Origin: Ruminococcus sp.
GTDB taxonomy: Bacteria; Bacillota; Clostridia; Oscillospirales; Ruminococcaceae
Assembly (NCBI GenBank): GCA_017462565.1
Contig: JAFTQW010000044.1
Location: 1-42,378 of the forward strand
DNA: 42,378 nucleotides
Direction: 5' to 3'
In this document: positions 1 to 29,156 of the stretch, piece by piece
Layout of the letters: every line of letters starts with the position of its first letter
Position numbering within the stretch: the first letter of the stretch is position 1
Made by a program: the position numbers and the translations under genes
Notes under the pieces: generated by a model
What the model was told of the DNA's origin: nothing
The model's input: the letters and a program-made list of their open reading frames with translations, nothing else
Database searches by the model: none

Positions 1-1026
1 ACGTGATTTAAATTGCTTAACGAGATTAACAGCAGCCTTTCTGAACATATTCAAGCTTTGCTGTACAGCCTTATTTTCAATTCTACACCAATCTTCCTCA
101 AAATGAACATCAAGAATCCAATGCATAGCTTCAACAGACCACTCCATTCTAGCATGATGAAGTAATTCTTCTGCTGTAAGGGAACGGCTTGAAATATAAT
201 AATGCCATTCGCTTGATGTGCCTTTTTTTGTGGTAAATTCGGTATGAATTGCTCCGATGCATTTGAGATTTTTCCATTCTTTACACTGTTGTAACCAATC
301 TATATCCGATGTAATGTAAGCCGTTCTTTTTTCAATTCTGCCATGACCTTGTTCGATTTTGAAAACAGAATGCATTGTATTTTGAAGCGATATATCCTGA
401 ACAAAATCTTCAATATCTTTTTTCAGATTGGGATGATTATCTTTCAAACAAAGCAAATAATCTGCTTTCTGATTCACAATTATTTCAGCAGTTTCCTTTT
501 GACAATTAATGGCGTCGGCAACAACAATATGACCTTTGATATTCAGTTCTTTCAGAAGCTCCTGCACAGCCGGTATTTCGTTGCTTTTGTCATCGGTACA
601 TCGCTGAGCGAGTGTTAAACCAAGTTCGCATACTTGTGCGCTGATGATATGCAGTGGACTTTCTATCTTCTCCATTTTTATAGTGGAGCATATCGTTTTT
701 CCGTCAAGAGAAATTGTCATATCCGTTGATTTTTCGGGCATAAATGAGTATACCCAATTTGCAAAACAGCGGTTTAGAGATTCGGGCTTTATCAGATCCA
801 GTAAGCATAATATCCAATAATAGCACGGCACGTGATTTATTCCAAAATTCTCCTTTAAAAATTCGCTTACTTTGTCACTTGCTGCCCATTGATGTATCTG
901 ACTGACGTTTTTCAATCCGCAGATACTGCCTATATTGCTATTGTTATGACATCTGCCACGCTGCAAAAATAGCCGTCATATTCTTCTGTTAATTCTACTT
1001 CTTCAAAGTATTCCGTTATTTTTCAT
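1..1026 (-). pseudogene. ISAs1-family transposase, frameshifted and cut by the window edge
   Basis: Read on the minus strand, this encodes a DDE transposase of the ISAs1 type (H-repeat-like). The segment from about 930 down to 1 is open and contains SLDGKTICS with the first catalytic Asp, then VVADAINCQKE with the second Asp, then LCLKDNHPNLKKDI, ISSRSLTAEELLHHAR and the C-terminal WSVEAMHWILDVHFEED block with the catalytic Glu. The N-terminal part (FEEVELTEEYDGYFCSVADV) is in a different frame. The frame breaks near 930-936, and again right after the probable ATG at 1024-1026, where a run of five A appears to hold one base too many. The 3' end lies outside the window. The catalytic core looks undamaged, but the gene cannot make a full protein without frameshifting. 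No terminal inverted repeat was identified upstream of the start. Confidence 0.8.
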
Positions 1027-2259: not shown

Positions 2260-2519
2260 ATGAAATATAAAGGATTTTATGTAAAAATAACTCACGATAC
2301 AGATTTGCATCGGGAGGATAAGGACGGTAATGATGTTTGCTGTAACGGTTTCACTATTGAAGTTTTTGCGGATGAGTCTGAAAGGTTTCAGATTGATGTC
2401 TTTCTGCTGCGGTTAATTTTGAGCTGCTAAAAGACAGTCTTGAAGAAGCTGAGCAGTTTGCTAAAGATTATATCGACTGCGAGGAAAAAGAGTATTGCAG
2501 AATAATTGAAGGAGAATAG
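2260..2519 (+). pseudogene. Small unrecognised protein, one frameshift
   Basis: A start ATG at 2260 is preceded by TTTTAGGAGG. The frame reads MKYKGFYVKITHDTDLHRE and continues to about 2400. There a one-base shift is needed to join ELLKDSLEEAEQFAKDYIDC and its stop at 2517-2519. Read through, the product would be about 86 residues, acidic, without membrane segments. I do not recognise the family. The intact ribosome binding site and both coherent halves suggest a recently broken gene, co-transcribed with the gamma-glutamylcyclotransferase-like remnant upstream. Unframed, the first half stops at about 56 residues. Confidence 0.55.
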
Positions 2520-2530
2520 AGAAAACAGAA

Positions 2531-2557
2531 AGCGACTTTATATTTGAAGTCGTTTTT
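2531..2557 (+). terminator. Intrinsic terminator
   Basis: A short stem GCGACTT/AAGTCGT (one G-T pair) with a 7-8 nt loop is followed by a T-run. It closes the two-gene unit ending at 2519. Confidence 0.6.
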
Positions 2558-2803
2558 GTATGCTATTCATCGAAATATGTCGCAAAAATATACTGTGTTG
2601 TAAAAATATACAAATTCGGTTTTAGCGCATTGTACATTATATAGAAATTTAGACAAGCCTGTATAAATATCGCTAAATCTATTAAAAAATGTTATTCAAT
2701 TGTGTATAATTATTTTAATAGCTTAAGTCGACCGTGGATAATTGTATATTATCTTAGTGAACAAGATATCACCTATTATAATAATTAAGAAGGAGAGAAG
2801 CTT

Positions 2804-3412
2804 ATGAGAAAACGTGTTTATATTAGTGCAGATTATTCGGAGGGCAGTGGTGATCGTAATGTTGTTGACACACTGAACAAATGGGGAACTGATGATTTGC
2901 ATAAGGTAGATTTTATTGATATGGCAAAAGTAGTTTCAGGAAGTATTTCTAATGATTCTGATTGCCGTCCATGTGACTTGAAAAAGGAGTTTAACAATCA
3001 GATTAATGCATCTTGAGTAGTGATTATAGTTATAGGTGATAAAACTAAAGATCGTACAGCAGGAAGTAATTGTTCTCGAGTGAATAAAGCACAGAGTGAG
3101 TGTAGTTGTACTCCTTATAAGCAAAATTCAAACGGATCGAAGGTCTGTAAGGTTTATAATACTCCTGATACTGATGGTACGAATGTTGGAAATATCAATA
3201 CATATTCATATATTCGTCATGAATTTGAACAGGCCAAGAAACGCAATAAAGTAATTATTGTGGTATATAATTCGTTAAGGAAAGAAACAAATTGGCTCCC
3301 AGCTTATATGAAAGATTATGAATCAGTGGCACATCCTTTTTGGATTAAGAACAGCAATGGTGATAAGGTTGGCGATTATTCATATATCAAAGAGGCATTG
3401 GGCTGTGATTGA
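2804..3412 (+). pseudogene. thsB: Type II Thoeris TIR-domain protein ThsB, one in-frame TGA
   Basis: The product starts MRKRVYISADYSEGSGDRNV, preceded by the strong ribosome binding site AAGAAGGAGAG. It continues with KVDFIDMAKV, a DLKKEFNNQINAS segment, VVIIVIGDKTKDRTAGSNCS, a Cys-rich stretch, and YSYIRHEFEQAKKRNKVIIV. This is the TIR-like domain of Thoeris ThsB. In Thoeris, ThsB senses phage and makes an ADP-ribose-derived signal from NAD+; in type II systems the signal is a histidine adduct that binds the Macro domain of ThsA. The Glu residues of HEFEQA are candidates for the catalytic Glu. A single TGA at 3014-3016, codon 71, interrupts an otherwise perfect 201-codon frame; homologues usually have Ser there, so TCA to TGA is the simplest event. 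Restart at GTG 3020 would lack the first strands of the fold. The end overlaps thsA by 8 nt. A sequencing error is not excluded. Confidence 0.82.
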
Positions 3413-4190
3413 TTTTTTTGTAAAAAGCGGAACATGGTCTATAAGTATAACTACATTGATTTTCACCTTTGTACCTGAAACATACTTTGGAAAAAACATT
3501 ATTTTAAATCGAATATTAACGCTACTCTTTGTTTTTATTATTGTAATAATATTTTATTTGCTATTTTTGGTGTGCCGCAGGAGCGTTGCATTTAAAGGGC
3601 ATAATTACAAAATTAAAGTTGAGTATGGCGATATTTTGAAAATGAATAATTGTAAAAAGGTTATCAATTTTGATGAGTGTTATACTACCAGTGTAGGTAA
3701 TGCCCCGGGTGATATAAAACCTACGTCGGTTTGTGGTCAATATCTTAAAATATATCCATATTTGGATGTAGAGAAACTCATAAAGAAATCAAAACTGAAA
3801 GCAGAAAACGAGAGATCGCAATACATGGGCAAGAAAAAATATGAATCTGGTAAATTAATATCTAACGGCGATGACTTGTTGATGTCTTTTGCTAAACTTG
3901 ATGCAGACGGAATAGGAAAGTTTTTTTCTTATAAAGAATTTTTGGATTGTTTATTTTTGTTATGGAAAGAAATTGATAAATATTATGGTCAGAAAGATGT
4001 TTGTATTCCTATCTTAGGTTCAGGTCTAACACGCATTAATGAAACAACTTTAACACAGCAAGAACTTCTCGATATAATTATCAGTTCGTACAAGTTGAGT
4101 CCACACAAAATAAAATCTCCATATAAACTGCATATTGTATGCAAAAAAAATGATGATTTTTCATTGAATAAAATTGGTAAATTTATTTGA
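3405..4190 (+). CDS. thsA: Type II Thoeris effector ThsA: transmembrane helices plus Macro domain
   Basis: The protein has 261 residues. The N-terminal 55 contain one weaker hydrophobic segment (about residues 9-25) and one clear helix (about 32-53, LLFVFIIVIIFYLLFLV). The rest is the ThsA-type Macro domain (DUF6430-like), with VEYGDILKMNNCKKVINFDE, SNGDDLLMSFAKLDADGIGK, a DCLFLLWKEID helix and the ligand-loop signature VCIPILGSGLTRI. In type II Thoeris this Macro domain binds the signal made by ThsB and the membrane part kills the infected cell. I chose GTG at 3405: it gives VIDFFVKSG, sits 10 nt after AAAGAGG inside thsB, and overlaps its partner by 8 nt, a normal coupled arrangement. A longer reading from 3318 would only extend into thsB sequence. 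The frame is fully open, unlike its partner. Confidence 0.85.
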   Translation: MIDFFVKSGTWSISITTLIFTFVPETYFGKNIILNRILTLLFVFIIVIIFYLLFLVCRRSVAFKGHNYKIKVEYGDILKMNNCKKVINFDECYTTSVGNAPGDIKPTSVCGQYLKIYPYLDVEKLIKKSKLKAENERSQYMGKKKYESGKLISNGDDLLMSFAKLDADGIGKFFSYKEFLDCLFLLWKEIDKYYGQKDVCIPILGSGLTRINETTLTQQELLDIIISSYKLSPHKIKSPYKLHIVCKKNDDFSLNKIGKFI

Positions 4191-4604
4191 ATGAGATTTT
4201 GAATAATAAAGGTGGAATGAATTGATATGCTATGCATATAGAGTAGTCAACAACGCCCCAAAATCTGGTGGAATTAAAGCAATAAATCTAATCAACGAAA
4301 TTGAGCAATATTGAGTATTTTGTAAAAGGACATAGCCTCTAAAGCGATGTTTGAAAAGCTTCAGATGTTTAAATTATTAAGTATTGCGGAGCGACATTTA
4401 ATTATAAAAATGCCTGCAATACTCTTTTGAAAGCTCACTTGGAATTTAACCATTTTTATAATTAGTCTCATTTTGCGCAAATATTGCTTGTTTGTTTAGT
4501 TCAAATAATTCTATTCCAATAGAAATTCAATTATGGGACAATAAGAAGAAATAATTATAAAATTCTTAAAACAAAGCATATATATTAAATAGTGAGGTGG
4601 TAAG
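4191..4604. other. Gap after thsA with a possible short ORF and a hairpin
   Basis: The only coding hint is a 30-codon frame, TTG 4222 to TGA 4314 (ICYAYRVVNNAPKSGGIKAI and onward), preceded by AAAGGTGG. I do not recognise it, and it may be the start of a truncated gene. At 4380-4423 AGTATTGC pairs with GCAATACT around a partly paired interior, followed by CTTTTG, a weak terminator-like hairpin. Nothing else is supported. Confidence 0.35.
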
Positions 4605-5238
4605 ATGAAAATAGATAATAAAGCTTGGCTTACACTTTATGATCCTGATTATGCAGATAATCAATACCTATATCATTTTACAAGCATTGATTCTGCAATA
4701 AAAATTCTATATAATGGAACGTTGAAATTTTCAAAATTAAATCGCACAAATGACACTTTAGAATCCAAACCTAAAATAAATTTTAATGGTTTATCAAATA
4801 AAAATGATATAATTATTCTTAGAAAGCATATTACAGAGTTAAACAATAATATGTTGCAACTTTTGTGTTTTACCATGGACTAAATGGCAACTTCGGAACG
4901 GTTACTTGATAAGATTAGGAAACGTAATAGTTTACTTGAAAAAAAGTTTGTCTAGTTTAGATTTTTTGAAATCTAGTATTGAACTTGTTAAATATTGTTA
5001 CTTTTCAAAACTTGATGATTGGGAAGGAGAAAATGAATATAGATTTTTGGCTTTTGGGGATGATGATTATTTTATAAATAATATAGATACTGCGTTAAGT
5101 GGCGTTATAATTGGTGAAAAAATGTCAATGGAAAATCAAAAAATAATTTCATTTTTTTGCGAAGATATTTGTGAAGTTAAACAAATTACTTTCACATATA
5201 ATGGATGTAACTTAATTAATATTCATAATGAATATTAA
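4605..5238 (+). pseudogene. DUF2971-family protein, frameshifted
   Basis: The N-terminal half begins MKIDNKAWLTLYDPDYADNQ after GTGAGGTGG. It contains YLYHFTSIDSAIKILYNGTL, FSKLNRTNDTLESKP and MLQLLCFTMD, a recognisable DUF2971 pattern. It hits a stop at 4881-4883. A second frame, joinable from about 4885, gives KWQLRNGYLIRLGN and then YFSKLDDWEGENEYRFLAFG, the conserved DUF2971 C-terminal block, ending at 5238. Together they make only about 210 residues, short for this family, so there may be an internal deletion as well as the frame change. The biochemical role is unknown. Members occur among defence and accessory genes, which fits the Thoeris neighbour. It should not be functional as read. 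Confidence 0.65.
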
Positions 5239-5263
5239 TTGGCACAATAGGAGGTATGTAAAA

Positions 5264-6256
5264 TGAGCCGAAAGTTAAGAAATACTATTAGAGATGCTAA
5301 TATGAGGATTTTTCTTGTTATACTATAGAAAGATATCTGATAATAGATGACGATCGGAATAATGATGAGAAAGATCAATTTGTTAAAAAATCAACGAGAG
5401 ACTTTGGTGTTGCATTCAGGAAGTTAATGTTAGAGCCAAAGGTATTATTTTGTCATATGTTATTGTGAGGCGTGTCTATAAAATCGGAAATAATCAAATT
5501 AGAATTGTTATTAATAACTTAGAATCGAAAACGGCGTTTAACGAACTGACCGATAATGTGATTGATATAGACGAATTGTCTCATTTGATAAACTTTAAAA
5601 CAACATCACCTCAGCGTAAAATTATGGTTAGTGATGATGTAATTCCAGGAAATGCTAGAATGATAATTGACAAAGAAGATCAGTTATCAGCAGCAGTTGA
5701 TATTTTTTTAGATATTTCTATGTTTAATGCTTATTCTTTTTTTAGAAACTTAACACACAAGGAAAAAATTGAGTTTAGTAGCGTGAAATATGAATACTTT
5801 AAAAACCTCAGTGAAGAAAGTTATTACCTTTTTAGTGAATCTAATCCACCTTCCTATTATTCTTTCGCTTTTTCAGCTAGAATCGATGGAAAAAATTTAG
5901 ATTATTTTAAATATATAGACTTATGGAAAAACTTTATATTAAGCCAATACTCTTCATACACAAATGATATTATGTCTATTGTTGAACAACTTAACTTTTA
6001 TAAAGATATTGGAAATTTAGATAAAGAATATCTTGCACCTGAATATTGGAATGGCTATAAAGGCGATTACTTATTGTTGAGGATCAACAGAGAACCCAAC
6101 ACAAATGCTTAAAAAAGTAAAATAACAAATTATTTTGGATTAACTGAATTTAATGTAGGTGAAACTAAACCTGTACCAATAAATGAATATTTCAATCCAT
6201 ATATAAGAAAACTAATTAATGAACTAATTATCTCTGCATATAAAGTTGTCTTATAA
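5264..6256 (+). pseudogene. Unrecognised large protein broken by two frameshifts and one stop
   Basis: ATG at 5264 follows AATAGGAGGTATG and starts MSRKLRNTIRDANMRIF. A one-base loss in the T-run near 5309-5313 moves the frame to YTIERYLIIDDDRNNDEKDQ and VKKSTRDFGVAFRKLMLEP. A second one-base loss near 5439-5443 returns it to the first frame (IILSYVIVRRVYKIGNNQIR), which stays open to a TAA at 6110-6112. After that TAA the same frame continues with KSKITNYFGLTEFNVGETKP and VPINEYFNPYIRKLINELII to 6256. Repaired, it would encode about 330 residues, rich in Asn, Lys, Tyr and Ile, with no membrane segment. I do not recognise a family. Its position behind Thoeris and DUF2971 suggests an accessory or defence role, but that is inference only. 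Confidence 0.55.
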
Positions 6257-6520: not shown

Positions 6521-8086
6521 ATGGGAATTTATCTTAATCCTGATAATACAGAATTTCAAATGGCATTAAATTCTGAGATTTATGTTGATAAGAGCGAACT
6601 TATAAAGCGAATGAATAAAGTGATCAATACAGAACAACGATTTATCTGTGTAAGTCGACCAAGGCGTTTTGGCAAATCAATGACCGCAAATATGCTTGCT
6701 GCATATTACAGCAGAGGCTGTGATTCAAAAGAAATGTTCAGTAAATATAAGATTGCTGATGATCCATCGTTTGAAAAACATCTGAATAAATACAATGTGA
6801 TTCATATCAACATGGTGAATTTCATAAGTGAAGGTAAAACTGTGCAGGAAGGTTTGGATTATCTTTGTAGGCGTTTGATACATGAATTAAAGCAGCAGTT
6901 TGGCGATGTTGATTGTTTTGACTGGAATAATCTTATGTCAGTTTTGGAAGATATATTTGCAGCCAAGCGTATTCCATTTATATTTATAATAGACGAATGG
7001 GACTGCGTATTCCGTGAGCTTAAAGATGACAAAGAAGCTCAGAAAAAATATCTTGATTTTCTTAGAGATATTCTTAAAAATAAAAGTTATCTTGCGCTTA
7101 CGTATATGACAGGAATTTTGCCGATAAAAAAATACGGAAAACATTCAGCTTTGAATATGTTTACGGAAATTGCAATGACGAACGCAGCGCCTTTGGAAGA
7201 ATTTACAGGATTTACTGAAAATGAAGTAAAAGAACTCTGTAATGAATATGAAAAAGATTACAATGAGGTCAAACGTTGGTATGACGGTTACAATGTTGAC
7301 GGAGTTTCAATTTATAATCCAAAATCAGTTGTTGAAGCACTGACCAGAGGAAAATTTCGTAATTACTGGACATCGACCGAAAATTATGAAGCGCTGGAAG
7401 AATTTATATGCAGAAATGATGACGGACTCAGGGATACGATAGTAAAGTTGCTTGCAGGTGAAAAAAAAGTGATAGATTCCTCAACATTTACTAATGATAT
7501 GGTAACATTTAATTCACAGGACGATGTGTTGACACTTTTAGTTCATCTCGGATATTTGACATTTGATTCTGAAACAAATGAAGTATCGATCCCGAATTAT
7601 GAAGTATCTGAACAGTTTGCAAGTACGATAAAAATTACAGATTGGTCGGAAGTTTCAAAATCTCTGAAGGTTTCAGATGAACTGCTTAAGGCTACGCTCA
7701 GAGGTGATTCAGAATCAGTTGCTAAATTTATCTCAGACAGCCACAAGGAGAATGCCTCGATACTGAAATATAACGATGAAAATTCACTTGCCTGTGTACT
7801 GTCGATTGCTTATTATTCTGCACGAAAAGATTATATTATCCACCGTGAACTTGCAACAGGAAACGGATTCGCCGACTTAGTTTTCATTCCGAGAAACGGA
7901 CGAAGTCTTCCTGCGATGATAGTTGAACTAAAAAAAGGACATTCCGCAGACGAAGCAATTCAGCAAATAAAAGATAATGATTATCTTCATAAAGTTTCCG
8001 AATATTCAGGAGAGATACTTCTTGTCGGAATCAATTACGACGATCAGAAAGGTTATACTTGTAAGATAGAGAAAATTCAGAAATAA
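6521..8086 (+). CDS. AAA-ATPase-like / PD-(D/E)XK nuclease-like protein
   Basis: The protein has 521 residues. The N-terminus (MGIYLNPDNTEFQMALNSEI) and the P-loop variant RPRRFGKSMTANML at about residues 46-60 identify the AAA-ATPase-like family PF09820. IFIIDEWDCVF at about 156-165 is the Walker B-like strand, and RWYDGYNVDGVSIYNPKSVV is a family signature. The C-terminus carries the PD-(D/E)XK_9 (PF08011) core with GFADLVFIP (about 448) and MIVELKKGHS (about 467): the Asp and the E-x-K are both present, so the nuclease site looks intact. Such proteins are abundant, often multicopy and of unproven function; links to mobile elements or defence are suspected. It has its own promoter and GGGAGG ribosome binding site, and is one of the two open genes in the degraded island. 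Confidence 0.85.
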   Translation: MGIYLNPDNTEFQMALNSEIYVDKSELIKRMNKVINTEQRFICVSRPRRFGKSMTANMLAAYYSRGCDSKEMFSKYKIADDPSFEKHLNKYNVIHINMVNFISEGKTVQEGLDYLCRRLIHELKQQFGDVDCFDWNNLMSVLEDIFAAKRIPFIFIIDEWDCVFRELKDDKEAQKKYLDFLRDILKNKSYLALTYMTGILPIKKYGKHSALNMFTEIAMTNAAPLEEFTGFTENEVKELCNEYEKDYNEVKRWYDGYNVDGVSIYNPKSVVEALTRGKFRNYWTSTENYEALEEFICRNDDGLRDTIVKLLAGEKKVIDSSTFTNDMVTFNSQDDVLTLLVHLGYLTFDSETNEVSIPNYEVSEQFASTIKITDWSEVSKSLKVSDELLKATLRGDSESVAKFISDSHKENASILKYNDENSLACVLSIAYYSARKDYIIHRELATGNGFADLVFIPRNGRSLPAMIVELKKGHSADEAIQQIKDNDYLHKVSEYSGEILLVGINYDDQKGYTCKIEKIQK

Positions 8087-8449: not shown

Positions 8450-9067
8450 GACATCAGCGTGGCGGACCTTGTGAGTTCTATCGCCACAATTTCAACTGTA
8501 ATTTGTATTTTATTTAAATACGGTAAACGGTATTGTGCAAGTCATTACATCAAGATGAAGGACATGGAACGTATCGTACTTGAAGATATTCGCAGTCTCG
8601 CAGAGGATTAGGAGAAAGCTAAGGCAAAGTTCCTTGTCCATAAAGCCAAGCAATATGAGGAACAGTATTCCGTAGATACAAAAAAATTCACAGATGGCAG
8701 ATACCGTTTGCAGGAGCTTGATACACTGATTCAGAATATCTATGAGGATAAAGTCATCGGCAAGGTATCTGAGGACGTAGCGATAAAGCTGATTTCGAAA
8801 TATGAAACCGAGCAGAAAGAGTTATCCGTCGAAGTCGCCGAGCTTGACAAAACGCTTTCAACGATAAGGCAGGACGAGGAAGATGTAGAACTGTTCATTA
8901 AGCGTCTGAAGAAGTACACCGATGTGCAGGAGCTTACCTGCGAGATGTGCTTGGAGCTTATCGAATATATCACGCTTGATACCTATGTTGAAGATCAGCC
9001 CCGTGATATCTACATCTACTACAAGTTGCTCGATGAACCTCTGAAAAACAAAAGAAGCCTGTTTTAA
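8450..9067 (+). pseudogene. C-terminal remnant of a large serine recombinase
   Basis: From about 8480 one frame reads YRHNFNCNLYFI, resembling the zinc-ribbon part of large serine recombinases. A frame change near 8516 then leads into YCASHYIKMKDMERIVLEDI, followed by TAG at 8609-8611. The same frame then runs open to 9067 with KFTDGRYRLQELDTLIQNIY, the Glu/Lys-rich coiled coil, and LTCEMCLELIEYITLDTYVE, the usual C-terminus of these enzymes. They integrate and excise conjugative and mobilisable elements. The catalytic N-terminal resolvase domain with the active Ser is missing entirely; unrelated sequence lies upstream. It is therefore a scar of a lost integrative element. The last 119 codons could be translated alone, but I see no ribosome binding site for that. 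Confidence 0.75.
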
Positions 9068-13600: not shown

Positions 13601-13625
13601 GTATTTTATTGAATGGATGTGGCTT

Positions 13626-16600
13626 ATGGTTGAATTTATAATTGGTCAGGCAGGAAGCGGAAAAACCACTCTTATGTTTGAACGTATAAAAAATAATACT
13701 GATAAATCGTGTATAATAGTTCCGGAACAGTTTTCATATGAGTTTGACAAAACTTTATATTTTTATCTTGGCGCTGAAAAATTCAACGAGCAGACTTCGC
13801 TGAGCTTTACCGGACTTTCACGAGAACTTTTTCAGCTTTTCGGAGAACCTGACAGAAAAGGCGAATATGCCAACGAATATGCACGGATGATAATGATCTA
13901 TCAAGCGATAAATTCAGTGAGAAATCAGCCTGAATCGCTTAATTTCTTTCGCCGTCAAAGCTTGCAGAGCGGATTTGCTGAAGAGGTTCTCGATATCATA
14001 AACGATATGAAACGCTCCGGAATAGAGCCTCAGCAGCTTTTGAATAAGGCTGTTATGATGGATAAGCGGCTTATGGATAAAACGACGGATATTTCTATGA
14101 TCTATCTTGAATATGAGCAGCTTATGAAGAAATATGGTTTTAAAAATATTCTCGATAATATAAAAGAAGCTGCCGTTATTGCTGATAAAAACAACTATTT
14201 CGGCGGTAAGAGCGTGTTTATAGACGAATTTGAAAGTTTTACCGGAGATCAGATAAAAATGCTTCGTGTAATGATTTCATCAGCTAAAAACGTTACAATT
14301 AATCTGCGGACTGACGATGTGGATGCAGGGGAATTTACTCTTTTTGAAACGGTAAACGGCACATACCGTAAAATTGCCAATATATGCCGTGAATACAAAA
14401 AGGAGTATAAAATAACGAAGTGCGGCAGGAGCTATAGATTTAAGCATCCTGATCTTGAATATCTCAGCGGACATATTATGCGTAATTTCAGATATTCTCC
14501 TCAGGACGCTCCGAAAGTTGAAAATATCCGAATTTTTGAAGCTAAGGATATGTACAGTGAAGCTGAATATGTCTGCGCTTCAATAAAAAGGCTCGTTCAC
14601 AATGATAAATCGCTGAAATACCGTGATTTTGCAGTTGTATCAAATGATATTGCAAATTATTCCGACGTTTTGAAAGCCGCATTCAGCCGATATGAGATAC
14701 CGTATTTTCTCAGCATTGAAAGAGCTGTTACTCACACGGCAGTCATGGTATTTTTCACGTCTCTGCTTAATATTTTATCTGCGAAAAAATTCCGCTCAGA
14801 GCAAATTTTCAGAATTATGAAAAGCGGACTTCTGGATATTTCGCTGACGGATGTTTCCTTGCTTGAAAATTATTGCTATAAATGGGGTGTTGACGGAGAT
14901 ATCTGGAGAGAAGCTTTTACAGCGGAGGATAAAGAGCTTGAAAGAATCGAATCCATTCGATCTTCGTTTATTGAACCGATAATTGTTCTGAAAAAAAGGC
15001 TTAATAAAAAAGATGTAACGGCTGAAAAAATCTGCCGTATTTTGTATGATTATCTTGTAAACTGCGGCGCTGAACGTAATACCGGAAGATTAATGTCGGG
15101 ACTTATTAAAGAGAATCTTGATTTTGAAGCGTCGGAAGTCAAAAGAATGTGGGGATGTCTTATTGATATTCTCGACAGCGTTGCCGGAACTTTGAAAGAA
15201 AATATAATACCGTTTAATGAACTTGCAAAAATAATCAAGTCGATGATAGGCAAAATAAATTATTCTGTTCCGCCCCAGACTCTTGATTCGGTCATAGCTG
15301 CTTCTGCAAGAACTGCAAGACTTAATTCGCCTAAAGTCGTTTTTGCGATAGGTTCAACAGACGGCGATTTTCCGAATCAGATCAGTATGCATGGGCTGTT
15401 TTCCGAATCAGATAAAATGATTCTTGCTAAAAACGGAATTGAGATATCACGTCCGCTTGCCGATCTTATAGCGTCTGAACGTCTGGTTGTTTATAAAACG
15501 CTTTCATCAGCCTCTGATAAGCTTTATATCACATATCCTCTTTCAGATCTGTCCGGGCAGGCAAAATATCCCGCACCGGCTGTTGACCAGATCATGAAAA
15601 TGTTTGGCGATAAAAAAATGCTGATTACTCAGGATGATATTCCTCCCCATTATTATGCTGTTACGATCCACTCGGCTTATTATCATTATATGCAGAACAG
15701 AGGACTTAATAACAGCGAAATTGCTTCGATTAAGGAAGTTCTTCTGCAAAATCAGGAATACAGCAGAAGAATAGTTCAGGTTTTAAGCCGTTATGGATAT
15801 AAGCAGAATTACAAAATTGATGAAGATATAATGAAAAAGTTGAAAAGCTTTACTCCTTTGAAGCTTTCTGCAACTGCTCTTAATGAGTATAATCTGTGTC
15901 ATTTCAAGTATTTCTGCGAAAAATGTCTGAAGCTTCAGACCTGTGAAAAGGTTGAGCTTGATGCAAGAGCAAGCGGAGAATTTGCTCATCTTTGCTTCAG
16001 TGAGATACTGGCTTCACGCACAAAAGAAAAGTTTATCGGGCTTTCTTATAATGAGCTTCAAAACGAGATCTCTTCGTGTGCCGAAAAATACCGCAAAGAA
16101 AAAATGGCAGGAGATTTTGGAAAGAAGCCGAAATTTGAGCTTATTTATAATAAAACCGCCGAACGTCTGACTAATGTTTTTCTTCATACCCAGCAATCTC
16201 TCATGTGTTCTTCGTTTACTCCGCACGCCTTTGAGCTTGATATGCGTGATAAGAATGCGGTAGTTCTTGATTTCGGGAAAAAATACAAACTTACTTTTGG
16301 CGGAATTGTTGACAGAGTTGACATATGCGAGGTTGACGGAAAAAATTATATTTGTATCGTCGATTATAAGAGCAGTCAGAAGAAAATTACTCCCATCTCA
16401 CTTGGCAGCGGAATAGATCTGCAAATGCTTCTGTATCTTTTTGCAGTGACGGATAAGGGCGGAGTTTATGAAAATTACGAACCTGCTGGAGTGCTTTATT
16501 CTCCGATTCAGATTTCAGCAGTTGAATCTGACGACTATAAGATCAATAGCCTGAATAGTTCGGTTCTTAATTCCGAGCTGAAAACAAGCGGACTTGTTAT

Positions 16601-16964
16601 AAGCGATAAAACCGTTCTCAATGCAATGGAAAACGGTATCGGAGGAAAATATATTCCCGTAAAACTGCTGAAATCAGGGGAATTTGACAGGTATTCAACC
16701 TGTATATCAAGAGGAGGCATAAAAAAGCTCCGGGATTTTACATATTCAAAACTTATAGAAATGGCCGAATCTCTTTTAAGCGGCGATGCCGAAGCCGAAC
16801 CGCTTGTGAAAAAGAAAGAGAATCCCTGTGAATACTGCGGATATGTGAATATATGCGATAATTCCCGTCTGGAAAGATTTAAAACTCCTGATGCGGAAAG
16901 CGTTGCCGAGGCGGAAGAAATTCTCAGCCGAAAAATTGATGTTTCTGAAGAAGAGGAGGAATAA
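13626..16964 (+). CDS. addB: ATP-dependent helicase/nuclease subunit B
   Basis: AddB is the second subunit of AddAB, the Gram-positive counterpart of RecBCD. It processes double-strand breaks and degrades linear DNA until a Chi site. The 1112-residue protein starts MVEFIIGQAGSGKTTLMFER with an intact Walker A. The middle is the inactivated helicase fold. The C-terminal third holds the RecB-type nuclease with GGIVDRVDI and IVDYKSSQK (about residues 890-920). The four iron-sulfur Cys are visible: one in CHFKYFCEK (about 758), and C-x2-C-x5-C in PCEYCGYVNIC (about 1067-1075). The ATG at 13617 is an alternative, but 13626 has GGATGTGG upstream and matches the usual N-terminus. addA follows after 2 nt. 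Confidence 0.93.
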   Translation: MVEFIIGQAGSGKTTLMFERIKNNTDKSCIIVPEQFSYEFDKTLYFYLGAEKFNEQTSLSFTGLSRELFQLFGEPDRKGEYANEYARMIMIYQAINSVRNQPESLNFFRRQSLQSGFAEEVLDIINDMKRSGIEPQQLLNKAVMMDKRLMDKTTDISMIYLEYEQLMKKYGFKNILDNIKEAAVIADKNNYFGGKSVFIDEFESFTGDQIKMLRVMISSAKNVTINLRTDDVDAGEFTLFETVNGTYRKIANICREYKKEYKITKCGRSYRFKHPDLEYLSGHIMRNFRYSPQDAPKVENIRIFEAKDMYSEAEYVCASIKRLVHNDKSLKYRDFAVVSNDIANYSDVLKAAFSRYEIPYFLSIERAVTHTAVMVFFTSLLNILSAKKFRSEQIFRIMKSGLLDISLTDVSLLENYCYKWGVDGDIWREAFTAEDKELERIESIRSSFIEPIIVLKKRLNKKDVTAEKICRILYDYLVNCGAERNTGRLMSGLIKENLDFEASEVKRMWGCLIDILDSVAGTLKENIIPFNELAKIIKSMIGKINYSVPPQTLDSVIAASARTARLNSPKVVFAIGSTDGDFPNQISMHGLFSESDKMILAKNGIEISRPLADLIASERLVVYKTLSSASDKLYITYPLSDLSGQAKYPAPAVDQIMKMFGDKKMLITQDDIPPHYYAVTIHSAYYHYMQNRGLNNSEIASIKEVLLQNQEYSRRIVQVLSRYGYKQNYKIDEDIMKKLKSFTPLKLSATALNEYNLCHFKYFCEKCLKLQTCEKVELDARASGEFAHLCFSEILASRTKEKFIGLSYNELQNEISSCAEKYRKEKMAGDFGKKPKFELIYNKTAERLTNVFLHTQQSLMCSSFTPHAFELDMRDKNAVVLDFGKKYKLTFGGIVDRVDICEVDGKNYICIVDYKSSQKKITPISLGSGIDLQMLLYLFAVTDKGGVYENYEPAGVLYSPIQISAVESDDYKINSLNSSVLNSELKTSGLVISDKTVLNAMENGIGGKYIPVKLLKSGEFDRYSTCISRGGIKKLRDFTYSKLIEMAESLLSGDAEAEPLVKKKENPCEYCGYVNICDNSRLERFKTPDAESVAEAEEILSRKIDVSEEEEE

Positions 16965-16966
16965 AT

Positions 16967-19900
16967 ATGGCATGGACTCAGCAGCAGGAAAACGCTATAA
17001 ACGCAAGAGGTTCGTCCGTGATAGTATCTGCCGCTGCCGGAAGCGGAAAAACATCTGTTTTGACAGAACGTCTTGCGAAGCTGATTGCCGATCCGGAATC
17101 GGGAGTAAGAGCAGACAGAATGGTTGTTGTTACGTTTACTAACGACGCTGCATCGGAGATGAAAAAACGTCTTGATATGAATTTAAGAGCGATGATAAAT
17201 GAAGATCCTTTCAACAGACATCTTTTGAAGCAGCAGACTCTTCTTCAAAATGCGAAAATCTCGACCATAAATTCGTTTTGCTTTGAACTGATAAGAGATA
17301 ATATTACCGATCAGGGGATAACTTCCGGATTTGCAATTCTTGATGAATCTGAATCCAAGATACTGAAATCACAGGCTATGGAGGAGCTTTTCGATTATTA
17401 CAGTGAGAATGATTATGAAAAAATATCCTTTTTATACGATCGTTTCTGTATTAAAAACGAAAAGTCGCTTATTGAGGTTATACAGCTTGCAGACAATTTT
17501 CTTGCTTCAGTCGCTCTAAGAGAAAAATGGTTTGAAAAGGCTGAAAGCGAATATAATAAAAAATTAAGCGATTCCGTTTATTTTGATTTTCTTATGGGAT
17601 ATGTTGCGAAAAAGCTTGAAAAAGCCCTTTGTCTTGCGGATGAATGTCTCGGTATGATAAAAGATATATTCCCGGATATAGAAGGTTATCCTCAGGCGAA
17701 AAAGTCTTTTGCAGTTGCCGAGAACGATTGTGACAAAATTTCAGATCTGTTCGGAATTATTAAAAGCGGACGTTTTCCGTCAGAGGGTGAGTGCGCAGCG
17801 CTTCTTGGATTTTCCGATTTACCGAGAGTAACGGCGAAAACTCCATGCAATGCAAAGCTTCGTGAAGTTTATAAGGCAAAAAGAAATAAAATGAAGAAAA
17901 CGACTTGCGAATCGATATCGATACTAAAAAATGTTGAGGAGGATTTTGAAGAATCCAGAGAAGTAACAGCCGTTCTTATAGAGATTCTGAAAAAATATCA
18001 GGAAATTATCTGGAGCAGAAAATGTGAGAAAAACGCTATAAGCTTTGATGACGGCGAGCGCCTTGCGCTGGAGATTCTTGCTGAAACAGATGAAAGCGGA
18101 AAAATTATTCAATCTGAAACGGCGGTAAGGACTGCTGAATATTACGATATTATCATGATCGACGAATATCAGGATTCCAATAATAAACAGGATCTGATTT
18201 TCAAGCTTATTTCAAAAAATTATAAGCATGGTCCGGAAGGGGAGCCGATGTATGGCGATAATGCTTTTCTTGTAGGAGATGTAAAGCAGTCGATTTATCG
18301 TTTCCGGCTTGCAAATCCGAAAAATTTTATAGCAACGCTAAAAAGCTCCGAACCGTACAGTAAAGAAAGCTCCTGTCCGAATAAAGCGATTTTTCTTAAC
18401 AGAAACTTCCGAAGCTCGAAAATGGTAATCGATTCCGTAAATTTTATATTTAGTCAGATAATGACCGAGCAGTGCGGTGATATTGATTATAACGAAAATG
18501 AAATGCTCTACTTTGGAGCGAAGGATTATGAACCATACAACAATGAATGCCGCACTCATATTACTTTTATAAATACTGATTCGGATGAAGTTTCTGATGA
18601 TGATTCATCTGAAAATGAAAAGAAAACTTCAACGCAGAATATTTTTCAGAAGAAAAATCCGGAAGCCGTTTATACTGCCGGAAAAATTGCTGAAATGATA
18701 AAAAGCGGAGCGCCTGTTATAACTGTCGGAGGAAAAAAACGTCCCTGTCGGCCGTCTGATTTCTGTATTCTTGTCAGAGCGAACGATTATATAAACATTT
18801 ATGCCGAAGAGCTTAACAAGAGGGGGATTCCTGCGAAAGGAAGCGGAGAAAAGGGATATCTCAAATCACGTGAAATTGCGCTTTTGATAGATATGCTCAG
18901 AATAATAAACAATCCTTTGCTTGATATTTCTATGATGGCAGTTATGACCTCGCCGATGTATATGTTCAGCATTCAGGAAATGGCTTTCATAAAATCGCTG
19001 GATAATTCAAGACCGATATATTCTGTTCTTCTTGAAATTTCACATGGTGAATACAGTGAACTATGCGATATGTTTTTCATGGAACGATGTAGGGATTTCC
19101 TCAGTGCTGTGGATTCATTCCGTCTTGATTCCGTTACGATGACCATAGGAGAACTTATCAGTGCAATATACGATACAACGGACTTTATTTCAGTTATGCA
19201 GCTTTACAGTGACGGCGAGAAAAAAAGAGCAAATCTGCGTTTGCTTATACAATATGCTCAGAATTATGAAAATTCGGCTGCTGCCGAAGGTCTCGGCGGT
19301 CTTGGAGGATTTTTAAGGCATATTGACCGTGTAATGGAAAACGGTGATTTTTCTCAGGGAAAGACTTCGGCGGCATCGGGCGATTATGTTTCAATACAAA
19401 CTCATCATGGTTCAAAGGGATTGGAATATCCATTTGTGTTTCTTGCTGAAACTTCCCATGAGTTTATGTACGATTCAAAAACCGTAATGTGTTCGGATGA
19501 CGGAAGGATAGGCTATAGATTATACGATCCCAAGCTTTTGAGAAAATATAAAACCTTTCAGCAGATTATGCTCAGCGAAGAGGAAAAGAATAATACCAAA
19601 AGCGAAGAAATGCGGCTTATGTATGTCGCTATGACAAGAGCTAAGCAGAAACTTTTTATAAATCTTAAATATGGAGAAAAAAACCGAAAATCAATAAGAT
19701 CTAATCTGGAACAATGTATTTTATGTCATGGAGATATAAGCGATGCGGTTAAAGAAGCGGAATGCTTTGCGGACTGGATATGGCTTTCATTGATAAAAGC
19801 CGACGGCTTTGCTGAAGCTGCCGAGCGTCTTGAAATTTGCAGCCGTGAAGAAGCTTCTTCTGTTTCAGAGAATGCTGAACCGATTTTTGAGTTTGAATTT

Positions 19901-20653
19901 GATGAAGTCAAAGATGCCTGTATTGAGGAAAGTGAACTGATTGAGGCGGACGCTGAATCTGATCCGGAAATATGCATGGATATAAATGAAATGATTCATT
20001 CGGATTATGATTCTTCTCTTTCAGAGCTGCCTGCCAAGCTTAGTGTTACACAGATTACTAAAAAATTTGAAAAGGAAGAGGAATTTGATTTCAGACTGAA
20101 ACGTCCGAAATTTCTTACATCCGCTTCACGTCTTACCGGAGCAGAGCGTGGTACGGCTATACATACCTTTTTTCAGTACTGCGATTTTGAAAATGCAAAA
20201 AAAGCTCCTGAATCAGAGATCGTTCGTATGACGGAAATGGGTTATATAAATCAGGCTCAGGCAGATTCTATTAATATAGAGAACGTTGCAGCGTTTTTTG
20301 AAAGCGAATTATATTCAAGGATGATATCTGCCAAAAATGCCTGTCGTGAAAAAAAGTTTATGGTTGCTGTAGCTCAGCTCGAAATTGAAAATGAGCTTAT
20401 GGAACGTTTAAAGAAGTCGGACGGAATGATAAAAGGAATTGTTGATCTTATGTTTGAAGAGAATGACGGAATCGTTATTGTCGATTATAAATCAGATCAC
20501 GGTGTTTCTGCGGAAAAGCTTGCAGAAAGATACAACGTTCAGCTAAAACTTTATAAATCCGCTATTGAGCTTACTGCTAAAAAAAGAGTTAAAGAAGCAT
20601 TTCTTTATTCGTTTGAACTGAGAAAAGCTATACCGATCAAATTGACGCAATAA
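16967..20653 (+). CDS. addA: ATP-dependent helicase/nuclease subunit A
   Basis: AddA is the UvrD/Rep-type helicase with a C-terminal nuclease that partners AddB in recombinational repair. The 1228-residue protein begins MAWTQQQENAINARGSSVIV, with Walker A AAAGSGKTS at about residues 22-30 and VVVTFTNDAASEMKKR as motif Ia. IIMIDEYQDSNNKQ near 393-407 is the Walker B/DExx motif; then VGDVKQSIYRFR, HGSKGLEYPFVF and LMYVAMTRAKQKL. The nuclease has GIVDLMF and VIVDYKSDHG near residues 1160-1180. All expected motifs are present. It is translated from GAGGAGGAATAA upstream of ATG 16967, directly behind addB. The stop codon abuts the left inverted repeat of the element at 20654, with no spacer. Confidence 0.95.
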   Translation: MAWTQQQENAINARGSSVIVSAAAGSGKTSVLTERLAKLIADPESGVRADRMVVVTFTNDAASEMKKRLDMNLRAMINEDPFNRHLLKQQTLLQNAKISTINSFCFELIRDNITDQGITSGFAILDESESKILKSQAMEELFDYYSENDYEKISFLYDRFCIKNEKSLIEVIQLADNFLASVALREKWFEKAESEYNKKLSDSVYFDFLMGYVAKKLEKALCLADECLGMIKDIFPDIEGYPQAKKSFAVAENDCDKISDLFGIIKSGRFPSEGECAALLGFSDLPRVTAKTPCNAKLREVYKAKRNKMKKTTCESISILKNVEEDFEESREVTAVLIEILKKYQEIIWSRKCEKNAISFDDGERLALEILAETDESGKIIQSETAVRTAEYYDIIMIDEYQDSNNKQDLIFKLISKNYKHGPEGEPMYGDNAFLVGDVKQSIYRFRLANPKNFIATLKSSEPYSKESSCPNKAIFLNRNFRSSKMVIDSVNFIFSQIMTEQCGDIDYNENEMLYFGAKDYEPYNNECRTHITFINTDSDEVSDDDSSENEKKTSTQNIFQKKNPEAVYTAGKIAEMIKSGAPVITVGGKKRPCRPSDFCILVRANDYINIYAEELNKRGIPAKGSGEKGYLKSREIALLIDMLRIINNPLLDISMMAVMTSPMYMFSIQEMAFIKSLDNSRPIYSVLLEISHGEYSELCDMFFMERCRDFLSAVDSFRLDSVTMTIGELISAIYDTTDFISVMQLYSDGEKKRANLRLLIQYAQNYENSAAAEGLGGLGGFLRHIDRVMENGDFSQGKTSAASGDYVSIQTHHGSKGLEYPFVFLAETSHEFMYDSKTVMCSDDGRIGYRLYDPKLLRKYKTFQQIMLSEEEKNNTKSEEMRLMYVAMTRAKQKLFINLKYGEKNRKSIRSNLEQCILCHGDISDAVKEAECFADWIWLSLIKADGFAEAAERLEICSREEASSVSENAEPIFEFEFDEVKDACIEESELIEADAESDPEICMDINEMIHSDYDSSLSELPAKLSVTQITKKFEKEEEFDFRLKRPKFLTSASRLTGAERGTAIHTFFQYCDFENAKKAPESEIVRMTEMGYINQAQADSINIENVAAFFESELYSRMISAKNACREKKFMVAVAQLEIENELMERLKKSDGMIKGIVDLMFEENDGIVIVDYKSDHGVSAEKLAERYNVQLKLYKSAIELTAKKRVKEAFLYSFELRKAIPIKLTQ

Positions 20654-20977: not shown

Positions 20978-22405
20978 TTAATTATCATTGTCTTTATCCT
21001 TATCGGATACATTAGTTTTTTCGGCATTAGCCTCTTCAAGGGTCAAAGTGATCTTAACATCCATATCATTTCGATTGACCGTAAGAGTTATTGTATCTCC
21101 GGCTTTATACTGGCTTTTTATCTTATTAAGCTCATCTGCCGTTGTAACAGGTTCACCTTCAATATCAATAATAACATCGCCCTTTCTAAGTCCTGCCTCT
21201 TCGGCAGCGCTTCCGGGTTCAACAGTTACCACGTAAACGCCCATAGGAATATTCAGATAACTTGAATAGGCTTCTGTGATATCACGGGTAGTAATTCCCA
21301 TTTGCGGTCTGCCCTTAACGTAATTATAGTTGATGAGATCGTCTATAATGGCTTTAGCTTCAGTTATGGGGATGGCGAATCCAAGACCTTCAACGCTTGC
21401 GTTCCCGCTGGAATAATTAGATGAAATTTTAGCGGAATTTATTCCTATTACCTGACCGCAGCTGTTGAGAAGCGGTCCGCCGGAGTTACCGGAATTTATA
21501 GGAGCGTCAGTCTGGATAAGAGTCATGCTTTTTTCGTTTATATCAATTTTTCTGTTCAGTGCAGAAACAATACCATGTGTTACAGAACCGAAAAGATCAA
21601 GTCCAAGCGGATTTCCGACTGCAATAACAAGTTCGCCTACTCTGAGATCATCACTGTTTCCAAGAACGGCAGGTTTAAGACCTGTTTCGTCAACTTTCAG
21701 AACGGCAATATCTGTTTCTGTATCATAAGCAATTATTTTTGCATCATGCTGAGTTTCATCACTGAACATGATCGAAACGCTTACGGCTTCACCGGCATTA
21801 TACTCACTTTCATCATAGATTACATGGGCGTTCGTGACGATATAACCGTCATCAGAAATAATAAAACCGGTTCCCGTTCCGAGCATTTGTCTTTCCTGAG
21901 GACCGGAATCCCATCCGAAAAATCCATAAGACTGAGTAAACTCAAAATTGGAGGAAACTCCGACGACCGACGGCATAATATCGTCAACAATATCCGGAAG
22001 AGCCTTAGCGTCTGTTCTTGCAGCAAGCTTGATTATGCTTGGATAATCATCGTCGTCGTTTGTTTCATTGTTTGAAATTGAAATATCAGAATAATCGGAA
22101 TCGCTGTCTTTATCGGCATTAAATTCGTCAAGTTCCGACTTATCCTTGTTGTCCTTATAAATTTTATATCCCTGAACCGAGCCTACACCGACTATGGCAA
22201 GACAAAGAACGAAAGCGACTGCTTTAAGAAGCGGATGTTTTTTGGCTTTTTTGGTTTTTATTGAATCATTTGCTGTGTAAGCATATGAGTTTGAATCGGA
22301 AACAGGAGGAATATTTCTGTTTTCATTCTGATCTGAGGATTCTGTATAATGGTTCTCATAATATTGAGAATCAGAAGAGTTAAAATCATTAAGATTATCA
22401 GACAT
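20978..22405 (-). CDS. HtrA/DegP-like membrane-anchored serine protease
   Basis: This is a trypsin-fold quality-control protease acting outside the membrane on misfolded proteins. The 475-residue protein has a 58-residue cytoplasmic head rich in Ser, Asn and Asp, a single transmembrane helix (about 59-81, LLKAVAFVLCLAIVGVGSVQ), and an acidic linker to 120. In the protease domain the triad is visible as His194 (IVTNAHVIYDE), Asp232 (YDTETDIAVLKVD) and Ser308 (INSGNSGGPLLN). One PDZ domain follows (about 365-460, with VEPGSAAEEAGLRKGDVIID), then a charged tail. The size and one-PDZ layout match Firmicutes HtrA/YyxA. The ribosome binding site GAAAGGACG precedes ATG 22405. It is monocistronic, ending in the shared terminator at 20885-20921. 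Confidence 0.93.
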   Translation of the reverse strand: MSDNLNDFNSSDSQYYENHYTESSDQNENRNIPPVSDSNSYAYTANDSIKTKKAKKHPLLKAVAFVLCLAIVGVGSVQGYKIYKDNKDKSELDEFNADKDSDSDYSDISISNNETNDDDDYPSIIKLAARTDAKALPDIVDDIMPSVVGVSSNFEFTQSYGFFGWDSGPQERQMLGTGTGFIISDDGYIVTNAHVIYDESEYNAGEAVSVSIMFSDETQHDAKIIAYDTETDIAVLKVDETGLKPAVLGNSDDLRVGELVIAVGNPLGLDLFGSVTHGIVSALNRKIDINEKSMTLIQTDAPINSGNSGGPLLNSCGQVIGINSAKISSNYSSGNASVEGLGFAIPITEAKAIIDDLINYNYVKGRPQMGITTRDITEAYSSYLNIPMGVYVVTVEPGSAAEEAGLRKGDVIIDIEGEPVTTADELNKIKSQYKAGDTITLTVNRNDMDVKITLTLEEANAEKTNVSDKDKDNDN

Positions 22406-27314: not shown

Positions 27315-29156
27315 ATGTTAAAAGATAAAATTGAAAAACATCTTCTTGAAGTTCAGAAACCGTCACGCTATATTGGCGGAGAAGTCGGAAGCGTGATAAA
27401 AGATAAATCCGGAATCGACGTTCGTTTCGCTTTCTGCTTTCCGGATACATATGATATAGGGATGTCGCATCTTGGCATGAAAATTCTTTATTCGCTCATA
27501 AACGAGCGAAGTAATTACTGGTGCGAACGCTGTTTTGCTCCGGCGGAGGATTTTGAGACTATAATGCGTGAAAATGACATTTCGCTTTACGCCCTTGAAA
27601 GTCTTGATCCCATAAAGGATTTTGATTTCATCGGATTTACAATGCAGTATGAGCTTTCATACACTAATGTTCTTAATATGCTTGATCTTGCCGGAATACC
27701 GATATTTGCGGATGAAAGAGGGGAGGAGCTTACACAGCTCGTAGTTGCCGGAGGTCCGTGCGTCTGCAATCCCGAACCGCTTGCGGACTTTTTCGATCTC
27801 TTTATTCTTGGAGAGGGTGAAGAAGTTAATCTTGAACTCATGGATCTTTATTATGAAATGAAGAAACAGGGAGCAAACAGAAAAGAATTCCTGAAAAAAG
27901 CGGCGCATATAGAGGGAATTTATGTACCGTCGCTTTATCGTTTCAATTATAAGGAGGACGGTACGATAGACAGTGTTGAGGCTCTTGAAGATGCTCCTGA
28001 AACTGTAAAAAAGCGTATCATCAAGGATTTCGATAAGGTTTATTATCCTGAGAATTTCGTTGTTCCCTTTACCGAAATAGTTCACGACAGAGCTTCCGTC
28101 GAGGTTCTGAGAGGATGCATAAGAGGATGCAGATTCTGTCAGGCTGGCTTTATTTATCGTCCTTTCAGGGAAAAACACAGCGATACGATCTGCCGTGAAA
28201 CAAAATGTCTTTGTGAAAATACCGGATATGACGAGGTCTCGCTTGCTTCTCTGAGTACGAGCGACCACTCTGAAATCGACGAACTTCTTTCCGAACTTAT
28301 CGATTATACGGCAGCGGAAAGGATAAATCTTTCTTTGCCGTCATTGCGGGTAGATAACTTCTCGGAGTCGCTTCTTGAAAAAATCAAAAAGGTCAGAAAG
28401 AGCGGTCTTACATTTGCTGCCGAGGGCGGCACACAGCGGCTTCGTGACGTTATAAATAAAAATGTCAGCGAAGAGGAGATAATGAACACTTGCCGTATTG
28501 CTTTCGAGGGAGGATATTCCAGCGTCAAGCTTTACTTCATGATGGGACTGCCGACTGAAACGGACGAGGATATTGTCGGAATAGCCGAGCTTGCGCAGAG
28601 AATAGTCGATTTGTTCTACAGTATTGAAAACCGTCCGAAGGGAAAGAACGTTCAGATTTCGATAAGCGTTGCGACTTTCGTTCCGAAACCATTTACGCCG
28701 TTTCAGTTTGAACCGCAGGATACCCGTGAAATGATAGAGCATAAGCAGAAGCTTCTTCTGGATTCTGTAAAATCGAAGAAAATCAAGGTCAGCTATCATG
28801 ATCCTAATGTGAGTATGCTTGAAGTTATTCTTGCCAAAGGCGACAGAAGGCTTTGTAAGGTCGTTTACGAGGCTTGGAAGAAAGGATGTAAGTTCGATAG
28901 CTGGGACGAACATTACCGCTTTGATAAATGGATCGAGGCTTTCAGAGAATGCGGAATCGATATGTCGTTTTATGCGAACAGACGCTTTGAATATGATGAG
29001 ATTCTGCCATGGGATCATCTTGATTACTATGTTTCAAAGGATTTCTTCATAAGAGAAAACAAAACGGCTCATAACGCTGTAACAACGCCGAATTGCCGGC
29101 TGAAATGTTCTGCCTGCGGAGTAAGTAAAGAGATTGGGGGAAGATGTTTTGATTAG
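27315..29156 (+). CDS. TIGR03960-family B12-binding-type radical SAM protein
   Basis: The 613-residue protein starts MLKDKIEKHLLEVQKPSRYI after TTTTGGAGG. An N-terminal cobalamin-binding-like region (about 35-190) contains FCFPDTYDIGMSHLGMKILY and LFILGEGEEVN. The radical SAM core has the cluster motif CIRGCRFCQAG (Cys at about 268, 272 and 275), then SLSTSDHSEI, FAAEGGTQRLRDVINKN and VKLYFMMGLPTETDEDI. The C-terminal domain ends in a Cys-rich TPNCRLKCSACGV. The family always sits next to TIGR03936 in Firmicutes, often before rng and ribosomal protein genes. Its substrate is unknown; a role in modifying ribosomal or RNA targets is only suggested by that context. It overlaps the next start by 8 nt. 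Confidence 0.9.
   Translation: MLKDKIEKHLLEVQKPSRYIGGEVGSVIKDKSGIDVRFAFCFPDTYDIGMSHLGMKILYSLINERSNYWCERCFAPAEDFETIMRENDISLYALESLDPIKDFDFIGFTMQYELSYTNVLNMLDLAGIPIFADERGEELTQLVVAGGPCVCNPEPLADFFDLFILGEGEEVNLELMDLYYEMKKQGANRKEFLKKAAHIEGIYVPSLYRFNYKEDGTIDSVEALEDAPETVKKRIIKDFDKVYYPENFVVPFTEIVHDRASVEVLRGCIRGCRFCQAGFIYRPFREKHSDTICRETKCLCENTGYDEVSLASLSTSDHSEIDELLSELIDYTAAERINLSLPSLRVDNFSESLLEKIKKVRKSGLTFAAEGGTQRLRDVINKNVSEEEIMNTCRIAFEGGYSSVKLYFMMGLPTETDEDIVGIAELAQRIVDLFYSIENRPKGKNVQISISVATFVPKPFTPFQFEPQDTREMIEHKQKLLLDSVKSKKIKVSYHDPNVSMLEVILAKGDRRLCKVVYEAWKKGCKFDSWDEHYRFDKWIEAFRECGIDMSFYANRRFEYDEILPWDHLDYYVSKDFFIRENKTAHNAVTTPNCRLKCSACGVSKEIGGRCFD

Follow-up and report, generated by a model that had tools for sequence, protein, structure and literature searches.

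A TM-macro Thoeris cassette of a Ruminococcus genome with a nonsense codon in thsB: most likely a very recent loss of function

Can a Thoeris cassette whose thsB gene is interrupted by one stop codon, while everything else about it looks sound, still defend its host, and how did it come to be in this state? The question is raised by positions 2804 to 4190 of the window (the whole stretch of 42,378 nucleotides analysed here, which is one complete contig of a 2.63-Mb genome of Ruminococcus sp. in 66 contigs). The features of the locus are the following:

2804-3016, forward strand: 5' part of thsB, an open frame with an ATG start and a truncated TIR-like product of 70 residues ending at the premature TGA (PADLOC PDLC00432).
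3014-3016, forward strand: the premature TGA, codon 71 of thsB, at which close relatives have one single residue.
3017-3412, forward strand: 3' part of thsB, the open remainder of the frame, with its own stop TGA at 3410-3412 (PDLC00432).
3405-4190, forward strand: thsA, intact, 261 residues, with a GTG start, a hydrophobic N-terminal membrane segment and a C-terminal ThsA macro domain.
2791-2797, forward strand: ribosome-binding site of thsB, recognised by sequence (duplex -8.8 kcal/mol).
3391-3395, forward strand: ribosome-binding site of thsA, recognised by sequence and lying within thsB (duplex -5.8 kcal/mol).
2768-4194, forward strand: the cassette, delimited by its blastn match to the nearest relative, L045 (83% DNA identity), with unrelated flanks.

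The effector gene is the simpler of the two. From the GTG at 3405 to the TGA at 4188-4190, ThsA matches Pfam PF20016 (ThsA_Macro) with 142.8 bits for a cut-off of 25, and PADLOC PDLC00411 with 383.6 bits over residues 1-260 of 261. Among PDB sequences it finds four distinct ones named Thoeris ThsA, at E values from 9.9e-22 to 5.3e-17, the best of which covers residues 66-255. The 19-residue windows of hydropathy above 1.6 start at residues 28-46, which gives one clear hydrophobic stretch (this measure does not separate a second helix). Both the macro domain of the Thoeris family and the N-terminal transmembrane part which characterize ThsA in type II (TM-macro) Thoeris are present. The original prediction, made from the letters alone, had described an intact effector of a type II system and had made the placing of 3405-4190 in the ThsA Macro family by a profile search the point on which this assignment depended; the two profiles above place it there, and the assignment is confirmed at the level of the sequence.

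The frame of thsB opens at ATG 2804, encodes 70 residues, meets the TGA at 3014-3016 and is then open again in the same frame until the TGA at 3410-3412. Residues 1-70 correspond to positions 1-70 of the PADLOC ThsB profile PDLC00432 (131.1 bits), and the 3' piece corresponds to positions 73-201 of the 202 of the same profile (211.9 bits), in register with the 5' piece. The locus also matches Pfam PF08937 (ThsB_TIR) with 22.5 bits for a cut-off of 21.2, in a match which spans one TGA; searched separately, the two pieces gave no match to Pfam TIR. Next to thsA there is thus a TIR-type ThsB, as in other type II (TM-macro) systems. This ThsB does not seem able to be made whole, because its codon 71 is TGA and no sign of recoding accompanies it (see below), and for this reason we class the pair among the broken representatives of the system rather than the working ones. 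That this TGA would be the only visible defect of thsB had been predicted, and we found no other. Complete domain signatures had been announced for both genes as well; this is true of ThsA, and holds for ThsB only when its two pieces are taken together, the 70-residue product being devoid of the region of Glu140 and Glu142. These two glutamates belong to the second half of the TIR domain and are invariant in alignment A1, in which L045 is joined by 23 of the 30 loci that a search with the 3' part of ThsB had retrieved.

The 8-nt overlap of thsB and thsA is as described beforehand (3405-3412), and L045 has an overlap of 8 nt too. Good ribosome-binding sites had been attributed to the two genes. 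Both genes do have one, and the Shine-Dalgarno duplex of thsB lies between the 1st and the 5th percentile of random sites of the window; that of thsA, near the 10th percentile and of equal energy in L045, is moderate and not strong. Since thsA has a ribosome-binding site of its own, ThsA can still be translated, while the early stop upstream may lower this translation, the site being inside thsB. Rfam matched nothing in the window, and a promoter scan was uninformative (13 found for 13.4 expected).

The TM-macro systems that have been described suggest what such a truncation would entail. According to PMC11204291, ThsB makes an adenine dinucleotide by base exchange, and this ligand makes the macro domains of ThsA oligomerise, which is thought to cluster their membrane parts. 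In the published model ThsB would sense infection, and in response to its signal the membrane-anchored ThsA would cluster and bring the infected cell to a halt. Since the second half of the TIR domain, with its invariant glutamates, is absent from the 70-residue product, no signal is to be expected from it; as the signal step is probably missing, ThsA should be harmless and idle, even where it is translated. The E. coli system reported in PMC11204291 (EcThsA, EcThsB1 and EcThsB2) resembles ours in that its ThsA has an N-terminal membrane segment and a macro domain, and differs in that the ThsB of the window has no match among PDB sequences at E 1, contains a long stretch with invariant cysteines and bears a nonsense codon. 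BaThs, as PMC11204291 describes it, has a single ThsB with His-ADPR as its product; one ThsB with one TM-macro ThsA is also the arrangement of the window. The same paper assigns the ThsB proteins with an active-site tyrosine to subfamilies 7-9, this tyrosine standing beside the catalytic glutamate.

The cysteines just mentioned are Cys 54, 57, 90, 102 and 115 (numbered as in the L045 row of A1; the numbers are the same in the window thsB). All are invariant in 24 of the 24 aligned relatives, and three of the five lie in a long stretch (85-134) which separates the third strand from the glutamate helix in the predicted structure of L045 and has low confidence there. It may be that this stretch is an insert peculiar to this ThsB subfamily, one that binds a metal or carries disulfides.

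These consequences suppose that the TGA is read as a stop. Among the open frames of the window of at least 150 codons, 20 of 40 end in TGA, and the thsB frame and thsA end in the same way. No SelB exceeded the cut-off in the genome: the best match (175.3 bits for 242.25 needed) is in a frame of 408 codons and is most likely EF-Tu, judging from this length. Neither was a tRNA-Sec (RF01852) found in the genome above 47 bits; the best match has 43.3, all eight matches listed are below the gathering score, and at these places ARAGORN names only Ser, Leu, His, Arg, Gly and Ala tRNAs. The genome thus does not show the pair of SelB and tRNA-Sec by which we would have recognised a selenoprotein. Selenocysteine and an alternative code were rejected, as TGA ends other frames, SelB stays below its cut-off and the Sec candidates are ordinary tRNAs. 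As far as can be tested, TGA appears to act as a stop here.

One could still imagine that the two pieces of thsB are both made. An in-frame GTG at 3020, 3 nt beyond the stop, might restart translation, and the restarted piece might form a working TIR domain together with the 70-residue piece. This GTG is without a Shine-Dalgarno sequence (+0.4 kcal/mol), and codon 71 is free of stops and breaks in all 31 close relatives (breaks occur elsewhere, in L011, L033 and L035). We give such a split ThsB next to no credit.

We then come to the age of the stop. Codon 71, which it had been proposed to compare in related genomes, codes for one identical residue in 31 of 31 close relatives; a different residue stands there in the remote relative L004 (23% identity). 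Of the columns which are invariant in the 24 relatives of A1, the window thsB alters 0 of 24 before the stop and 0 of 39 after it. Neutral drift past the stop is bounded at about 0.03 substitutions per non-synonymous site (95%), to be compared with a synonymous divergence of thsB between the window and L045 of 0.55-0.96. (A1 omits L007, L011, L033 and L035, which are incomplete, and L013, L014 and L023, which are near copies; its row L019 begins with extra residues, hence the two changes which seem to be its own are an artefact.) Between the window and L045, dN/dS is 0.05-0.08 in thsB before the stop, 0.13-0.21 after it and 0.11-0.17 in thsA. With four outgroups in turn, the private changes past the stop number 7, 4, 4 and 3 in the window for 11, 11, 9 and 6 in L045, that is fewer in the window each time, while before the stop they number 2, 1, 3 and 2 for 3, 2, 1 and 2. 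The higher ratio past the stop is thus owed more to the branch of L045, and there is no sign of decay in the thsB of the window. The absence of altered invariant columns past the stop means that the stop is very young, or that the base is wrong, or that the stop is leaky.

An error of sequencing or assembly, in which case the system would be intact, is unlikely in our opinion, and yet it deserves to be weighed: a lack of decay behind the stop would be expected from a base-calling error, or from a leaky stop, just as much as from a young mutation, and this counts against our conclusion. Moreover, at codon 72, beside the stop, the window has a residue which is absent from L045 and from the 23 other relatives, L045 and 21 of these 23 sharing another one. 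Such a cluster of unusual changes at codons 71-72 might hint at a sequencing error or at a multi-base event. On the other hand, the genome is estimated to be 99.99% complete with 1.27% contamination, and eight large genes of core type in the window are full-length open frames named by domain, namely:

13617-16964
16967-20653
20978-22405
27315-29156
33794-35287
36091-37407
38104-39411
39813-42155

With these eight frames open, gross base errors are rare, which does not clear the very base of codon 71.

In the case of a leaky stop, UGA would be read through at a low rate and a small dose of ThsB would leave the system attenuated and not dead. That every column invariant in the relatives is kept past the stop, and that dN/dS is low on both sides of it, would agree with this. 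Recency explains this conservation equally well, SelB is below its cut-off and no tRNA of the Sec type was named at the candidates, so that we regard low-rate read-through as improbable. We judge it just as improbable that the stop is leaky or polymorphic in the population, the cassette being held at a low dose or "mostly off"; if this were true, the cost of a suicide system would be avoided and the system could yet act, or return, under phage attack. No allele of the same species was found in viral contigs (with the exact pattern around codon 71) or on plasmids (with 2600-4400 as the query); scanned with ThsA, the viral contigs contained 2 relatives at 52% identity. A very recent mutation remains our preferred reading of the undecayed 3' part.

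The original prediction had further supposed that the gene could be switched off and on by mutation. A second copy of thsB could serve as a repair donor, and searches of the genome with the 3' piece and with PF08937 revealed none. In 2500-4700 there are 4 families of direct repeats in two copies and 5 inverted pairs, all of 16-28 nt and imperfect. One inverted pair (2767-2785 and 3023-3041, 84%) brackets codon 71. At equal stringency, the stretch of the window has 2 such inverted pairs and at least 1 is found in 14 of 30 dinucleotide shuffles (mean 0.5), which puts the inverted repeat near the chance level. An inversion would also have turned the start of thsB round, and this start stands as in the relatives; we rejected it as a switch. 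The adaptive version of the claim is therefore unsupported, and what is left of it is the general possibility of point mutation. Ordinary point mutation would seem to be the sole remaining route back.

The nearest relative, L045 (contig 90 of genome G083, of the same genus), is one of 3 matches outside the own genome among 100 genomes of the genus, the two others being remote. Its thsB and thsA stand in the same order, with a protein identity of 82% for ThsB (165 of 202) and 79% for ThsA (206 of 261). It differs from the window in that thsB is whole, in that thsA is followed on its 3' side by a second ThsB-like TIR gene and then by a PDC-M50A gene, and in its surroundings, which have no match in the window. 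Indeed, when the window is compared by blastn with the 10.8-kb contig of L045, only 2768-4194 matches, and this shows that the cassette is a unit placed in unrelated surroundings. The second ThsB-like gene of L045 (1132-1902, reverse strand, PDLC00430 with 267.5 bits) directly follows thsA, and the PDC-M50A gene next to it is short. By tblastn at E 1e-3, nothing in the window or in the loci of the other genomes compared matches this second ThsB.

The first 10 kb of the window look like mobile DNA, the housekeeping genes starting about 9.9 kb in. An ISAs1-family transposase (1-966, reverse strand) runs off the start of the contig, and at 8708-9067 (forward strand) there is a remnant of the recombinase type with DUF4368, a domain which we take to be recombinase-associated. 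The contig of L045 opens with a frame which resembles, by eye, the end of a recombinase. Just downstream of the cassette, a frame of 110 residues (4906-5238, forward strand) has a PADLOC match to the candidate defence family PDC-S31 which is confined to the C-terminal third of that family's profile (35.3 bits, positions 163-245 of 259); the frame is possibly the remnant of another defence gene. Between the cassette and the recombinase-type remnant, a protein of 521 residues (6521-8086, forward strand) combines AAA-ATPase_like (PF09820) and a PD-(D/E)XK_9 nuclease domain, and has no match in PADLOC.

Is the sensor gene the one that is preferentially lost in this family? To lose the signal producer while keeping the killer had been presented as the direction expected when immunity becomes costly. 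We examined the 30 loci found by scanning genome contigs with the 3' part of ThsB (one genome per species; loci without that part could not be found in this way, so that the tally is biased against the loss of thsB). Both genes are whole at 23 of the 30 loci. At 3 (L010, L027 and L034) thsB is whole and thsA is frameshifted, cut or without a match; at 1 (L011) thsB is cut and thsA is whole; at 2 (L033 and L035) both genes are damaged or missing; L007, at a contig edge, is undecided. In our opinion L035 may reflect sequencing errors; L011, L012 and L014 are near copies of one another, and several of the loci come from metagenome bins. With thsA alone damaged or missing at 3 loci of 30 and thsB alone at 1, under the bias just stated, costly immunity does not find in this loss the evidence that had been claimed, and there is no hint that loss is visibly aimed at the sensor gene in this family.

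The L011 locus (Roseburia sp. 1XD42-69, 4959-5396, forward strand) is a second natural case of a broken thsB beside a whole thsA. Its damage is of another kind: the first 58 codons of thsB are missing and the sequence changes abruptly there. From the break onward, its DNA is 100% identical over 1961 bases to that of L012 and L014, which both have a whole thsB.

A ThsA deprived of its ThsB looks unusual, and such a state is probably short-lived. The ThsA of the window was matched in 4 of 100 genomes of the genus at E 0.001, the own genome included, and at E 1e-20 in 1 of 297 genomes of the family, which is the own genome. In the class, 391 genomes searched with PF20016 at E 1e-10 gave 10 with a match, and in the order 394 genomes gave 5; the own genome is in both counts. 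Around thsA, 11 of the 13 PF20016 loci of other genomes have at least one whole TIR-type gene; in 10 of these 11 one gene each was submitted to PADLOC and all matched ThsB models, though two did so weakly (53.7 and 40 bits), while for the eleventh, L067, the judgement relies only on its resemblance to L066. At L070 and L073, 285 and 83 bases are available before thsA, and no evident TIR gene comes after it.

Could another TIR enzyme of the same genome drive the orphan ThsA, as had also been suggested? The genome does have three TIR_2 genes (55, 49.8 and 46.7 bits, cut-off 28), and L045, with its second ThsB right after thsA, indicates that two TIR proteins for one ThsA do occur in the group. 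The search for further ThsB-like genes was fruitless: PF08937 at E 0.001 has one match in the genome, the thsB of the window, and the three TIR_2 proteins are not matched by it. They are zinc-ribbon and TIR_2 proteins of 522, 704 and 909 residues (G000:C39:52513-55280 and G000:C57:3117-5852; L049 and L050), encoded on other contigs than thsA with a different architecture and different neighbours; two of the genes are in tandem and the third is followed by a gene which is SPFH-like by eye. Kin of one of them is present in 9 of 29 other genomes searched; 8 of these 9 belong to the same genus, and the ThsA of the window has no match in those 8. (This zinc-ribbon and TIR_2 family is matched 11 times in G394, a genome of the order.) The second ThsB of L045 has, as said, no counterpart in the window. 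Hence the suggestion is right in that other TIR genes exist, and nothing ties them to ThsA; we hold it very improbable that one of them drives it.

Taking all this together, we think it likely that the locus is a TM-macro Thoeris cassette whose thsB was inactivated freshly and by chance, and which is most probably dead as a defence, with ThsA idle. The sequence itself establishes the family membership, where the codon lies and how conserved it is, and the absence of decay; lost function, an idle ThsA, recency and chance are what we deduce from it. The thsB gene would have acquired its nonsense codon very recently in this genome, and a null mutation arising by chance, in a cassette that is dispensable and was moved horizontally, would suffice to leave the isolate without this defence. 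To all appearances a known system has lost its function in an ordinary way and very recently, and we do not see a new kind of switch in it. In the literature listings searched, no title or abstract opening dealt with this locus or with a broken thsB beside a whole thsA. PMC12322248 mentions that defence systems with a pseudogene were left out of its counts, from which it appears that such cases are already familiar. A survey which counted a match to ThsA alone would call this genome defended, and this is probably not so. A single case tells little; this one records a step in the turnover of phage defences of the suicide type, at which an otherwise pristine module is silenced in its sensor gene.
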